From Planoprotostelium fungivorum (Eukaryota; Evosea; Variosea; Cavosteliida; Cavosteliaceae), in NCBI GenBank assembly GCA_003024175.1, contig MDYQ01000088.1, forward strand, positions 35,688-99,687: DNA of 64,000 nt, in the 5' to 3' direction. The position numbers were made by a program, and so were the translations under genes. Positions within the stretch are counted from its first letter, which is position 1, and the number at the start of each line of letters is the position of its first letter. Under the pieces are notes generated by a model. That model was not told the origin of the DNA and ran no database searches. It saw only the letters and a list, made by a program, of their open reading frames with translations. Shown here piece by piece: positions 19,967 through 28,400 of the stretch.

Positions 19967-20685
19967 ATGAGAAACCTCATTATCTTGTCACTGTTCTGTT
20001 TGTGCTCTGCTCGCTTCATCGAGACCACTCTCCACCGACAAGAGTCCTGTGAAACGGTCAGATCCAAACGCTACTATGCTCAGCCCTCTTGCCAGCTCTA
20101 TGGACCTGTGACCGTCCTATTCAATGTTTCAGGCGGTGGAGACACCATCACTCTCACACGCGTGACGGACAGCCCCCTAAATCCCATCACTGGTCCTTGT
20201 CAGACGACTCACGATAGAGAGATCTCCATCACGACTCTCGGACTTCATCGATGCAGTGGAAACTACAGCTTCGCTCCGAATGAGACGTTCGCCACGGTGG
20301 ATGAGATCCCATTACAGTATGGCAACGAATCAGTGGTCATAGGGTTCTATACCGATTCAGCTTGTACCACAGTAAGGATTTCCGTTCATCCACACTCTGA
20401 TCCCCGCAGTTGGGATTCATCCAAACTCAAGATGCCAAATGCAACTCCACCATGTATGGCGTCAACGAATGTGTCAAGATCAACGATGACGCTTTCTATC
20501 GGAGGATGTGTGGAGATGGACTGTCAGAGTTGCAGAAAGGCCTCCTTCCATTTTCTCCCATCACACCTTCTACCGATGTTTCAAGATCTACAAGGGCCAC
20601 ACCTACTGAGACGCAAAGCGGTTCCAACTTCATTCTTCCCTCTCTGTTCGTGATGGCTGCAGCCACTGTGACTGCTTTCCTGTAA
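19967..20685 (+). CDS. Secreted or GPI-anchored Cys-containing protein, unknown
   Basis: Not recognised. The ATG at 19967 gives a signal peptide (MRNLIILSLFCLCSARF). The mature part has evenly spaced cysteines (QESCETVRSKRYYAQPSCQL, GPCQTTHDREISI, LHRCSGNYSF, YTDSACTT, then an intron, AKCNSTMYGVNEC) and several N-glycosylation sequons, as in extracellular proteins. It ends with a Thr/Ser-rich stalk (STRATPTETQSG) and a hydrophobic C-terminus (FILPSLFVMAAATVTAFL) with no charged tail, which fits a GPI-anchor signal. One intron is placed at about 20372-20409. About 225 residues. Confidence 0.65.
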
Positions 20686-21115: not shown

Positions 21116-24100
21116 ATGAAACTAGAATCCTTCCTGCCCGTCATCTTCACCTTCACCCTATTTGTGACGGTGTCACAAGCCGATATTGCGGCCTTAATGC
21201 AGGGGATCTGGTCCTCTTTGGAGGGTGAATGAACCAAAGGTTTATCTATTCTGAACTCAATGACAGGACCGTCTATGTACTGGCGGGGTATCAACGTGAG
21301 TTCATCCGCCCTCGTTCCTTCTTGTCATCTGCAGCCGCACGATCTTTTGGAGAAACTTCTCATCATCTCTCCTTCATCATATTCAACGATGGAATCAAAT
21401 TTCGAGTGAATCTCTTCCAGGTCTGTAATTCCACTGACTACGTCGGCGTGGCCTGTGATACCACCCAATCCTGGCCGGTCAGAATTGTACTTCGCCAGAA
21501 TCTCAACGGAACTATTCCTTCCTCCATCGGTAGCTTGATCAATCTCACCACCTTGGACCTCTCCACCAATTCACTCGCGGGGCCCATTCCATCCTCCATC
21601 GGCAGCCTCCGCTCCCTCCAATATCTCAGATTGCGCTCCAATCGACTCGATGGTCCCATTCCATCCACCGTTGGAGATCTCTCCTCCATCAGAGAGTTGG
21701 ACTTGAGCAACAATCGACTGCAGGGATCGATCGCGGACACCATCGGTCACCTCAACTCTCTCCTTTCGCTCGATCTCAGTGGCAACAGATTGAACGGATC
21801 GATCCCCACCTCCCTTGGAAGTCTTTCCTCCCTCACCGCATTAGATCTCTCTTCCAATTCGCTGACGGGATCTATTCCGTCCCTCATCGGTAACATCATC
21901 ACCCTACAATCTCTCAACCTCTACTACAATCAGCTCGGTGGATCCATACCATCTTCCTTCAGCAATCTCAGCTCTCTCAACAACCTCGCAATGTATGGCA
22001 ATCAACTCAATGGAAATATTCCATCACTGATGGACGGTCTCACCCAACTTGAATTTTTGGATCTCTCTTCGAATCAATTTGATGGAATCGTTCCATCCCT
22101 CGGCGGATTGCGAAACCTTCAGACTCTTTCTCTCGTGAGATTCATTCTACTTGTCTGTAGATCGGCGTGACGAGCGACAGGCCAACAACTCGTTAATTGG
22201 TTCTCTCCCTGATTTCGTCTACAATCTGACGGGTCTCACGTCTCTATACCTCGATACGAACCGATTCAACGGCACTATATCTCCGTTAATCGGTAACTTG
22301 GCAAAGCTCACCACTCTCTACCTGCACGACAATCAACTCGGTGGAAATATTCCCTCTACCCTAGGTAACCTCAGTGCCCTGCAGTTCCTTCACATGTCCA
22401 ACAACCAATTGAACGGATCGATCCCTTCTTCGATTGCGGGCCTATTTTCTCTTAAATATCTCTACCTGTACAATAATCAGCTGAGCGGTCCGTTGCCAGG
22501 TGATGAATAGTGATTCACCAAACACTGAATGATGAGTTGCAGGCGATTCGATCATCAATCTACCACAACTGAGGGATCTGAATCTGCAAAATAATTCCCT
22601 GAATGGCACCGTGGTGGGAAGGAATGCCAGTCTACCCGCTCTACTGTATCTCAATCTGTACGACAATGATTTCACTTCGATGCAGTTCATCAATGTCACT
22701 AACGCCTGCAACATCGCTGAAAATCCCTTCAATTGCTCTCCTCCACCGAACGTGTCTTCCAACTGCGCTCAGAGTATCAGTGATCTCAATTGTGCTTCTA
22801 CTGCCGACCCTGTCACTACACGGTCCACTATTGAAATAGCCACTGCCTCGATCACTATATCATCTTTAGACTCCCCTCAGTCAACGACATCAATCACCTC
22901 TATCATCGGTACTCTGTACTCTAACAACACGATCATTTCAACTGCACAAGCTCAGGTGAAAGAAACATGAATAGAAGATGGATTGATCATGGAAATAGAA
23001 CATATTGAATAGCACGGTTCAAAGTGCGGAGGTGAACCAGAGGAGAGATGCAGAAGGAATCCTGAATCTTTTTAGGCCACCCAGATCATTTCAGCCGTCA
23101 TTCTCGCTCTTCTACGCAACACATCGTCATTTGAATATCAATCACGAGATGTGTTGATCAAGCTGCAGACGTTTAATCTCACCCATATCATCCAACAGAA
23201 GATACAGAGCAGCATCACCGATCGAAACATATCCGTATCCCTTCCAGCTTCTATATTCACATCTCAGAGAGGTGATCACCTCTCATCCCTAAATGGCTAA
23301 GCTTTTCAGATTCAATCTCCGTATCTCTCTCCTCCATATCTTTCAACCCCTTCACATCCATCAAGAACGAAACGATGTGATTCGTTGCGACCCTTCGCAT
23401 CATCTGTTGACATCGTACAGATACAGTGATGTGGTAGGTGTTAGCGTATATTCTGGAACGAGAGAAATCGAGGTCAGAGGAACGAACGAGCTGATCAACA
23501 TCTCCATGGGCGCTATCCGTGATATCCCTTTGGCTTACGGTGAGATGAAATACATCTTCACATCGCAAAACAAAGTAAACTGAAATGGAGATTAGCTCCG
23601 ATGTGTCAGTATTGGAACGAGAATGATTCTCAGTGGTTGAGGGACGGATGCAGTCTCGTTATAGACGGTAACGTGGGCATCTGTCAGAGCACCCATCTCA
23701 CGAATTTCTCCATCGGAATCGCACCCGTGGAAGCTGCACCGACGTCAGATGGGAGCTCAAAGAAATTGATCATCATCATTGTCTGTACTGTGATGGGAGC
23801 CATTTTACTCTCCGTCGTCGTTGGCTTGATCATCTATCTCCGATTGTATCGATACGAGAAGGTGAGATGTTATCAGACATATGATGATCGTTGTCTCACT
23901 CTGAAACAGGGAGAAGAGGATGTGTCCATGTCGATGGTTTTAGACATCGATGGAATCGAGTGGAAGGAGAAGATTGCCGAGACGAATCACGGCCAAGTGT
24001 GGAGGGGTACGTACAAAGAGACGACTGCAGTTGTTATCAGAAAATGTCTACCAATCTTCGGCATTGCGAAGGAATGTGATGTATTGAAGGTAATGTGATT

Positions 24101-24927
24101 GGTGAGAAAGGAAGAAGATTGAAATCAAGTCAGGGATTACATCATCCGAATATCGTACAATATCTGGGTTGCAAACTCGCTGGTGATAGAATCAGATACA
24201 GAATTCGATCTGAATGCCTCTCAGACAATTACATCGTGTTTGAATGGATGAACGATGGTACTCTTCACAACTATCTCACACATCACCCACAACCCAATAT
24301 GATGACCTTACGTTCGATGTGAGTGCGATGACTTGAAAAGAGAGTGAAGAGGCAACAGAGGGAGAGATTTGAGCAGTGCTCTCTCTTATTTATCCTCCGT
24401 GGGATTTGTCCACACGAGTGTCATTCCTGGGAAGGTGATTACATTCTTCATGGGAGGAAATGTGAAGAGACGCAGATTCTGCTATCGGATCGAAATTCGA
24501 TGACGGTAAAGCTTCAGTGTCTTTCGTGTGTTGTCACAGAATCAACGGCTTACCAGAGCAATAAGAATCAATTCTATATGGTGATGAATGAAGACTGGAA
24601 GATGAATTTGAGACGGAACAGGCACCGGAGATCATAAGGAAGAAGCGATACAGTGCAAGCGGACACGTATATAGCATCGGAGTGCTATTTTGGTCCATGG
24701 CAACCAACAATCATCACCTGTACAACGATACGGAAGATAATCACGACGTCACTTTTGTCACCCACAATTTGGTCGACGGGAGGATGGTAGAGATCATCTC
24801 CGAGTGTACGAATGAAGAAGGGAAGCGGCCGAGTCTGAGTGAGCTGAGCAAGAAGATGGAGAAGATAGAGGCAGTGGTGCATACAGTAGAGAAGACACCC
24901 CATGATTTGTACGCGTTCACCCCTTGA
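21116..24927 (+). CDS. LRR receptor with GAIN/GPS-like module and cytoplasmic pseudokinase
   Basis: Signal peptide MKLESFLPVIFTFTLFVTVS is followed by a Cys cap (CNSTDYVGVACDTTQ). About 15 plant-type leucine-rich repeats of the GxIPSSIGSLxxLTxLDLSxN type come next (21480-22700), then a Ser/Thr-rich stalk. Next is a GAIN-like region (ISAVILALLRNTS, SVSLPASIF) closing with a GPS motif: CQYWNENDSQWLRDGC and CQSTHLTNFSIG (23605-23711), where the HL/T autocleavage tripeptide is intact. A membrane span follows (IIIIVCTVMGAILLSVVVGL). The kinase domain (23940-24900) keeps the fold (GQVWRGTY, HHPNIVQYLGCKL, NYIVFEWMNDGTLHNYL, EIIRKKRYSASGHVYSIGVL, NEEGKRPSLSEL). It lacks three catalytic residues: VAIK is VVIR, HRD is HTS (24411-24419), and DFG is QCLS. 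Ten or more introns. AATAAA follows the stop. Confidence 0.85.
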
Positions 24928-25410: not shown

Positions 25411-28400
25411 TCACAACTCTTGACTGGGTCCAAGAGATCTTGACGAGGCCGATGCAGCAATCGATCGGAAGGTTGGCTCCCGATTGAAATTGGGTTGGTT
25501 CAAAAAGAAGCATTTCGACATGATGGGTTGCATGGGAGCGGCTTCCATGAACTCTCTCAGGTCTAACAGCCCGTCCTTGTTCTCGTCCGCCACCTCATGC
25601 GAGTCACTCTCCACCGTTCATCGATATCCTCACCTGAAAGATCATCTCGACGGAGAATTGTATCTGTTCTTCTACTTCATCATCCTCTTGTCCATCAGTA
25701 TCCATCACATGGTAGATGTTCAAGAGTCCCTCTCTCAAATCTTCCGGCCCTATCGCCCCCTTGTTCTCCACGTCGAACGTCTTAAAGAAGACTGCCACGT
25801 CATCAGCTGGTGCCCAGGAGACAGAGACTCACGAGCGAGTCTCTCCTCTTCGGTTCCCTTGCAGAGAGTGGAGAGACCAAAGATCAGATCTCTGAACTCC
25901 AAGTGATGGTTGCCGTTTCTGTCCATGAGTTTGAAGAGTTTGGAGAGGAACGTGCCTGATCCTCCCCACTCGGGGAAGATCCTCCGCAGTAACATGACGA
26001 AGATCTGGTACAGTCAGGTCTAGATCAAGTGATATAGAGATATGGAAACAGTAGTGGAGATCATGAGGGGGATAATGAGAGAGGTAGTGAGGAAGATAGG
26101 TGATGAGAACAGTTCCATAGTGAAGAATAATCAGAAAGATAATGAAGATACGATAAGATAGTGAAGATAATGAAAACAACAACTGAATAGGATAGATGCA
26201 CCCACATCTTCTGTGATACAATCGTGAATGGTATGAAGAGTCATCCACTGCGATCGTAAATCCAGAATGGTATCGACGCCGACTGCATTCGAATGAGATG
26301 ACATCCTCCTCTCAATGTGACTCACAATTTGTGTTCTTCTCTAGATCAGAGTGTTCCACCATCCACTGTCGCGTCTTCGTGTCTAATTCAATGTCCGCTC
26401 TGTACTTCTCCCTTAACTTGGAGATCTTCTGATTATCTAAAGGTTTCGATATGTTCTTGATGACCTGATCACACTCTTCACTCTCTCTCCTCCTTCACTC
26501 TGACTCACTGAAAAGACGGAATCGGCTTCGTACAGTCTCGCCGCCTTCTTAGCGACGTACAGGGCCAGCTCCGTATCGTCTTCTATCTCTAACAGATCCT
26601 TCTCGAAGAGAGACAATATGGCAAGAGCGATCTACCTCTCCTTCAGCTCGTGACATTTGAAATTCAAATATTTCAGCTCGTGACATTTGAAATTCAAATA
26701 TTTCAGCTCGTGACATTTGAAATTCAAATATTTCAGCTCGTGACATTTGAAATTCAAATATTTCACCTCGAAAATCATGGCGGGACCCTTGTAAAAGATC
26801 ATATCCCAGAATCGAAACGCAGTCTGTTCACATCAGTCAACTGGAACCATCGATCGATTCTACCTCGTTTGGTACCGACGTGACGTACAGACACATGAGC
26901 CACTGAGCGCTGATGATGAGGATGTTGAACTCCATCTTCTCCATGTGCTTGTGGAGCTTCGGTAGTCTCTTGCTGCAGTACTTGGACAAGATGTAAGCGT
27001 CGACGCGTGAGCCGCTGACGTTCTGAACGAATCAGGTGAATGTAAATCCAGACATATGCACCTGATCGAAATAGTCGGGTAGTAGTCTCTCTACCACGTA
27101 AGCCAACATCCAGAATGCCTCTTCTTCGTCCATAAAGATGAGTAACCCGGCGGCGACAAAGTTCATCGCCTGGCAGTATCCCACCTTTGGGTTCTTCCAC
27201 GAATAAGCCACGAGGACTGATTTCGTTCAACCGATGTAATTCGATGCATTCGAAGGTCTATACATGAAGATCGTGACATCGATTTCGATTGAGGAATAAC
27301 GTCACCTCTTTTGAGTGATCCCCTGGAAAAACTACCGATGTTGGAAGAGAAAGTCCTCGTGATGTCTTTTTCGATCTGTACCAAGGCTTCACTGTTCTTG
27401 TGTGCGTTGTCTTTCAGCAGAGTGAGGTACAGACCCGTACTCATGCTCATGACCTGCATCACTCGTCAGATCATCATCTCATCTTCCGTCGAGAACGTAA
27501 ATATATCTCACCTCGTTTGTACCAGAGAATAATTTCCAGAATAAAGGTCTGTATTTGGGAGGGATACCTCTTCTCACCATCTCACTAAAGTGCACCTGTT
27601 GCTGTTGCTTCACCGAGAGAACCTCAGGACTCCTCGTCACTGTGTTCTGTATCTGTAGATGTCGGCGTGTGTCCTCCTCTGTCTTCTCACCCTGGCAAAG
27701 AGGGCAACCATACTGCCCGTGCGAGTTAAAGGTTTGGGTGTACCGAGAGCGTTGTAGACGGTGCCTTCATCTCCTGATGTTCTTAATTCGGAGGAGCGGT
27801 GGAGGGGGCTGATCTTCCCGTCTTCTCCTGATACTCTGTTCATGTGCTGTCGGATGGCTGTTTGTAGAGGTGAAGCTGATGGATTCTGTCAGAGTGACGT
27901 GACATGAGATGAATGATCGAAGAGGAGAGAGAGGGAGAGAAGAGAAAATAGAAGAGAGATATGAATAACATGAATAGATAAAAAGCATAAGAGAGAAAGA
28001 AGAAGAGATGGAGGAGAAAGATAGAAAGAGAAGAAGAGGAAGATGGAAAGAGAAGAAGAGAAGAAGAGGAAGAGAGAAAGAGAAGACAGAGGAGATAAAG
28101 AGAGAAAGATGAGGCTCACTCTTTGGTACAGGAGGAGAACGAAGGTTAGGAGTGTTAGGTGCACTGATCCCCACGAAGGGTAATTGTCCTGCCTCCAATT
28201 CCGTCGAATGATTCTCCACGTACTCTTGGAACCTTCTCATGTCACACTTCATCATCATCACATCTCACGTTTCGATCTGGTGCTGGAGGCTGAGCAAATA
28301 ACCATCGACGTAATTCTGGTACTCTTCGATGTGTGCTGAAGGTATGACGAAGCCGTACAGATCTCTCTGCTGCTCTCTCTATCAATTCTTATTCCGTTGA

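Follow-up and report, generated by a model that had tools for sequence, protein, structure and literature searches.

The genome of Planoprotostelium fungivorum encodes single-pass receptors in which a GPS motif with an intact HL/T cleavage triad, one membrane span and a mostly degenerate kinase-like domain follow one another. We describe one such gene, with a leucine-rich repeat (LRR) ectodomain, in the window, that is, the whole stretch of 64,000 nucleotides analysed (contig MDYQ01000088.1, positions 35,688 to 99,687); all coordinates below count from its first letter. The architecture had been proposed for this gene in a first-pass annotation, and it is strengthened by the finding that the gene is no lone oddity but one member of a family for which 150 GPS matches are listed across the assembly. 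We consider it probable that these proteins form a lineage-expanded family of cleavable, GAIN-type single-pass receptors with a mostly dead kinase-like tail, in which force or a ligand would remove the LRR fragment and the pseudokinase would signal. The parts are known, and their combination and scale were not found described in the open-licence literature searched.

The gene occupies positions 21116-24927 of the (+) strand. Its ATG at 21116 and its TGA stop at 24925-24927 were confirmed in the raw sequence and, like the HL/T codons at 23694-23702, lie exactly where the first-pass annotation had put them. The gene was modelled manually with short GT-AG introns, and the kinase exons were refined by profile-guided spliced alignment to relatives, which gave 16 exons and a clean spliced ORF of 1050 aa. 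Refinement shifted one intron to 24090-24133 and introduced a new one at 24183-24224, and the Pfam kinase match of the protein rose from 1.6e-24 in the first model to 1.6e-27. Exons 1-2 (exon 2 has 21 bases) and the exact start are the weakest and less certain part of the model. The features are as follows.

21116..21181, + strand: signal peptide (MKLESFLPVIFTFTLFVTVSQA), recognised by eye
21466..22703, + strand: about 15 plant-type (GxIP) LRRs (Pfam LRR_1 7.1e-37, LRR_8 4.5e-36)
22999..23597, + strand: GAIN-like region upstream of the GPS, exons 6-9 (paralog profile including the GPS; weak hhalign)
23598..23714, + strand: GPS motif with Ser in place of the fourth Cys (PF01825: 39.1 bits by six-frame search, 33.7 bits for the spliced protein)
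23694..23702, + strand: HL/T cleavage triad, intact (raw sequence and motif table)
23760..23861, + strand: single membrane span and basic juxtamembrane stretch, both in the exon that holds the GPS (hydropathy scan, which gave one segment downstream of that motif)
23955..24855, + strand: kinase-like domain, degenerate (PF07714 1.6e-27, ABL1 alignment, motif columns)
21116-21224, 21267-21287, 21335-22134, 22181-22499, 22543-22955, + strand: exons 1-5 (GT-AG model)
22999-23031, 23076-23271, 23310-23376, 23421-23539, + strand: exons 6-9 (GT-AG model)
23596-23861, 23910-24089, 24134-24182, + strand: exons 10-12 (GT-AG model, kinase exons refined)
24225-24318, 24359-24434, 24476-24580, 24622-24927, + strand: exons 13-16 (kinase exons refined)
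23544..24098, + strand: unspliced open frame of 184 aa without a stop, carrying the GPS, the span and the N-lobe/glycine-loop region of the kinase

By eye, the ectodomain contained 15 full LRRs and one partial repeat. The GPS of the spliced protein was recognised by Pfam at E 5.4e-8 with a score of 33.7 bits (cut-off 22.5), and the PK_Tyr_Ser-Thr match covered aa 797-1027, with the kinase fold running to the stop codon. Signal peptide, LRRs, single span and kinase fold thus lie in one protein, in the layout of a receptor kinase. From the letters, the first-pass annotation had read about 15 LRRs, one span and a kinase fold, which Pfam and hydropathy bear out, and a signal peptide, which was seen again by eye. 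It had also proposed HMM searches, and models for LRR, GPS and kinase (LRR_8 4.5e-36, GPS 5.4e-8, PK_Tyr_Ser-Thr 1.6e-27) all hit the same protein. Its view that these domains belong to one gene agrees with the single modelled protein and with the open frame 23544-24098, through which intron 23862-23909 reads in frame. As GPS, span and kinase start all lie in this frame, their join is independent of splicing.

A profile of the GAIN-like region and GPS was built from 12 paralogs (about 220 residues) and run against the PDB. The first 23 of its 27 matches were adhesion GPCRs; 10 of these 23 reached back to column 148 or further, and the other 13 barely exceeded the GPS. The alignment to ADGRG2 (3.7e-14) spanned columns 105-221, that to ADGRG6 columns 13-221 and that to the BAI3 GAIN structure 4dlo columns 26-223. 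When the region before the GPS was searched alone, no adhesion GPCR was returned from the PDB at E up to 10; since removal of the GPS erased all such matches, the upstream part is not recognisable by itself in a profile search. Direct hhalign comparison with two adhesion-GPCR GAIN pieces gave P = 0.007 and a probability of 5%, against an E of 0.9 for a control comparison with a kinase alignment; despite the weak score, the register was as expected and included a common S-x-I-x-F-x-x-F stretch. To us a GAIN-B-like fold before the GPS is likely, and the GAIN module named in the first-pass annotation is supported in part: the profile aligned beyond the GPS to solved GAIN domains, while the part upstream of the GPS found none when taken alone. 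Pfam recognised the GPS in 12/12 of these regions. Four other Pfam families (best 0.021) and four NCBIfam models (best 0.0019, a fimbrial chaperone) matched one member each and were judged to be chance.

The search of the 36.86-Mb assembly lists 150 PF01825 matches, each scoring above the curated threshold; of 176 candidates, 150 were scored. Some pairs share equal scores and frame lengths (e.g. C86, C467), so the number of distinct loci is perhaps below 150. We modelled 65 GPS genes with a GeneWise-like custom script: 24 from a first set of regions (rank 43 and, except for rank 3, ranks 1-24), 40 hand-picked at roughly even steps from rank 25 downwards, and the window gene. The 65 include near-identical copies, and L003 (rank 3), which did not align, stands outside all counts. 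A kinase-like domain lay downstream of the GPS in 64/65 genes, and the order GPS, span, kinase-like domain was found in 39/40 of the stepwise-sampled loci and 24/24 from the first set. One membrane segment was predicted after the GPS in 61/65 and two in 3/65; none was predicted in L015, where a span is visible in the raw frame. No 7TM was present in the aligned part of the 65 genes. An exon-by-exon search of the assembly for 7tm_2 also gave no match, a weak test in which the control genomes likewise gave none. Pfam confirmed the kinase fold in all four divergent members tried.

Several loci deserve separate mention. L061 (C304) has a GPS and a span, and visual inspection of 1.8 kb revealed no kinase-like domain; it may be a truncated copy or another architecture. 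In L051 a contig end cuts the gene after the kinase N-lobe. L015 (C221) has a low-complexity repeat coding for His/Ser/Ile between GPS and span and a decayed kinase-like domain, and its model is unsure. Dense clusters of GPS matches with close copies were seen on contigs C1, C196, C335, C351, C58 and C388, and some GPS genes have near-identical copies on different contigs, as does a myosin on C35 and C112. The clustered copies point to tandem expansion, perhaps also to assembly haplotypes. A myosin II exon from the assembly scored up to 192 bits against entries such as 1fmv and 1mma, which are Dictyostelium discoideum myosin II, and no more than 127 bits against myosins of other kinds (best 60 of 146 matches), a result that points to Amoebozoa.

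The cleavage triad was unchanged throughout the sample. HLT was present in 65/65 modelled copies, as was a Phe two places after the T, and Leu, Ile or Val stood two positions beyond that Phe in 64/65. We do not think that the search forced this invariance, because the listed matches include scores as low as 31 bits (cut-off 22.5) and the cysteines vary. All four GPS cysteines were kept in 55/65 copies and at least one was missing in 10/65, counted over the stretch read. Cys4 alone was lost in 5/65, among them the window gene, which keeps Cys2 and has Ser for Cys4. Both Cys2 and Cys4 were absent from the stretch read in another 5/65 (in L048, Cys1 lies outside it), and Cys2 was never lost where Cys4 was kept (0/65). 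The pattern agrees with a disulfide between Cys2 and Cys4 of the GPS. The comparison suggests that one GPS disulfide was lost stepwise while HLT persisted; if the pairing is right, Cys2 of the window GPS would be unpaired, and its own cleavage may fail even if its relatives cut.

The kinase-like domain of the window gene has lost its catalytic residues. At the motif columns Lys is replaced by Arg, HRD reads HTS, its partner Asn is Lys and DFG reads CLS; the catalytic columns (Lys, HRD Asp, DFG Asp) thus hold Arg, Ser and Cys, and an ABL1 alignment shows the same region. The domain is a predicted pseudokinase, as the first-pass annotation had called it. Family kinases are mostly degenerate too, in counts for which the column alignment of the subfamily that diverges most (C1, C196, C335) is uncertain: the HRD Asp was kept in 6/63 (4/63 if the His is required as well), its partner Asn in 14/63, the DFG Asp in 23/61 and the ATP-site Lys in 46/63, and the C-helix Glu was found in 47/51, the other 14 copies having a gap at that column. 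Lys and both Asp residues occurred together in 5/60, two of the five being identical copies, and in 3/60 (L047, L060, L068) His and Asn were present as well. Kinase-domain dN/dS was 0.07-0.33 in all 25 pairs, out of 35 listed, for which dS was defined. The pairs were 60-98.5% identical over at least 180 codons and excluded L003, L051 and L061; they are non-independent, and gene conversion in the arrays is possible. No pair included the window kinase, and none of the 25 an HRD-Asp copy. The kinase domains of the relatives measured in these 25 pairs are under purifying selection. Among solved kinases, ABL-type tyrosine kinases were best for the window domain, and a six-member family profile had EGFR, JAK1/TYK2 and ABL entries on top (best 60 of 2702 PDB matches), one of which we take to be JAK1.

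A kinase tree was built without L003, L017, L027, L051 and L061, which were left out by name, and without items that measured less than 250 aa counted from the GPS; from the 57 input sequences the program dropped six, L060 among them, which left 51 rows. The three HRD-Asp copies in the tree sit in one five-row group (100/99), and the label needs two changes. The window gene falls in a seven-row group (99/95), and three of its six group-mates, L019 and two L011 genes (those read upstream), have LRRs upstream. In the sister group, L014 has a TIG domain (1.7e-10) and L022 has LRRs; a weak LRR_ComC match there (4.7e-4) is below its cut-off. L009, L018 and L025 represent a subfamily with non-LRR ectodomains, L009 being placed by eye and by the tree; L025 has a mannose-lectin (B_lectin) match of 2.8e-4, below the cut-off, and L018 has no such match.

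On the reading that we favour, the LRR ectodomain would bind a ligand (prey or another cell) that is either soluble or on a surface. Maturation would include self-cleavage of the GAIN/GPS module at HL/T, after which the two fragments would stay joined non-covalently. Binding or pulling would then strip the LRR fragment and leave a membrane piece in which a short stalk of about 20 residues and one span precede the pseudokinase, which may act as a scaffold or an allosteric partner, perhaps of the few members that keep the catalytic residues or of separate kinases. The tethered agonist that the first-pass annotation had named does not transfer literally, as a 7TM bundle to receive it is missing; with only one span, agonism of the 7TM type is impossible here.

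Other explanations concern the cut, the catalysis, the role of the tail and the gene itself. Changes of Cys or Trp in the GPS of human ADGRG1 block cleavage, and the Ser at Cys4 of the window GPS, together with the other Cys-deficient copies, would suit a non-cleaving adhesion module in an ordinary LRR receptor-like (pseudo)kinase. We find this somewhat unlikely, because an unused site should drift and all ten Cys-deficient copies keep HLT. Activity by an unusual catalytic arrangement is known from WNK kinases and from non-phosphorylating pseudokinases, and the frequent ATP-site Lys and C-helix Glu and the strong constraint in the family would agree with it. The scarcity of the HRD Asp, its partner Asn and the DFG Asp, the varied replacements at these sites, and the loss of all three in the window copy, with Arg for Lys, make an active kinase-like domain quite improbable.

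It is also unlikely, in our judgement, that the only role of GAIN/GPS is to help the protein fold and leave the cell's interior or to free the LRR fragment as a secreted product, with the pseudokinase a mere anchor or trafficking adaptor that sends no signal after cleavage. The one span, the mostly lost catalytic residues and a signalling partner that is only putative would suit such a role, and PMC4810088 terms the cleavage of polycystin-1 at its GPS a post-translational modification of the juxtamembrane site. However, the strong constraint in 25 pairs and the presence of the kinase-like domain in 64/65 genes exceed what an anchor alone would seem to require. That the window locus holds two adjacent genes, or a join made in assembly or annotation, has a negligible chance of being right: the single-gene reading comes from a predicted gene model and L061 has no recognised kinase, but GPS, span and kinase start share one open frame and the same order recurs at 64/65 loci, on which grounds we reject a two-gene locus. 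In view of the recurrence of this order across the assembly we likewise reject a lone fusion or an assembly artefact. A wider form of the cleavable-receptor reading appears doubtful to us. GAIN/GPS may be a general cleavable switch, coupled in this amoebozoan-like lineage to single-span pseudokinases without a 7TM, and shedding might leave a short stub whose conserved TxF-hydrophobic segment drives self-association or marks the fragment for somewhat Notch-like intramembrane cutting that would free the pseudokinase.

Adhesion GPCRs (ADGRG2, ADGRG6, ADGRB3/BAI3 and others) share with the family a large modular ectodomain, a probable GAIN-like region, a GPS with HL/T and a TxF-hydrophobic stretch beside the membrane. 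The window protein has a GPS above the PF01825 cut-off with the triad intact, the first-pass assignment that holds across all modelled copies; it lacks the class B2 7TM of those receptors and has one span followed by a kinase fold. Polycystin-1 carries LRRs, and its family resembles the present one in having a membrane-adjacent GPS outside the 7TM class. Plant LRR receptor-like kinases have GxIP-type LRRs, one span and a cytoplasmic kinase fold, and some are catalytically dead, all of which is found here; we know of none with a GAIN/GPS, whereas the window protein has a GPS and its nearest solved kinases are ABL-type tyrosine kinases. Dictyostelid surface proteins of the ComC type combine LRR and TIG, as do L022 (LRRs) and L014 (TIG) between them, with GPS and kinase-like domain added here. 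Polycystin-1 is a multi-span protein, with 11 spans according to a passage of PMC9672506, whereas in the window protein a single span is followed by a kinase fold that reaches the stop codon. The TxF-hydrophobic stretch of the family is close to the 'TxFAVLM' consensus in an excerpt of PMC12716839; the same excerpt describes GPCR-TKL/K receptors in choanoflagellates and states that 7TM-kinase fusions have been reported in oomycetes and amoebozoans. Those proteins also end in a kinase-family domain but have a 7TM, which is absent here. The 150 listed GPS matches outnumber the predicted adhesion GPCRs of choanoflagellate species, of which some have up to 41 according to PMC13197933. A term count of the Physarum genome paper (PMC4758236, main text) found neither 'GPS' nor 'GAIN', and the titles and abstract openings listed from the open-licence PMC literature gave no description of a GPS with a single-span kinase. 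Such proteins may sit unremarked in public databases.

The GAIN module has so far mostly been studied as a trigger of 7TM receptors. The present family is one large class of GAIN/GPS partners outside animals, in which the triad is unchanged in all 65 copies modelled and there is no 7TM recipient. It can now be tested whether 7TM activation arose later than cleavage and shedding, and by what means an ectodomain that cuts itself could drive a pseudokinase. If the remaining matches resemble the sample, a single cell would have more than 100 receptor pseudokinases.

Two minor observations were made beside the window gene. A small predicted secreted protein at about 19967-20685 (+) has a hydrophobic C-terminal tail that looks GPI-anchor-like by eye, and its hand-made model had no Pfam match. 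Positions 26642-26770 hold a near-perfect 30-base minisatellite of 4.3 copies with open frames on both strands.
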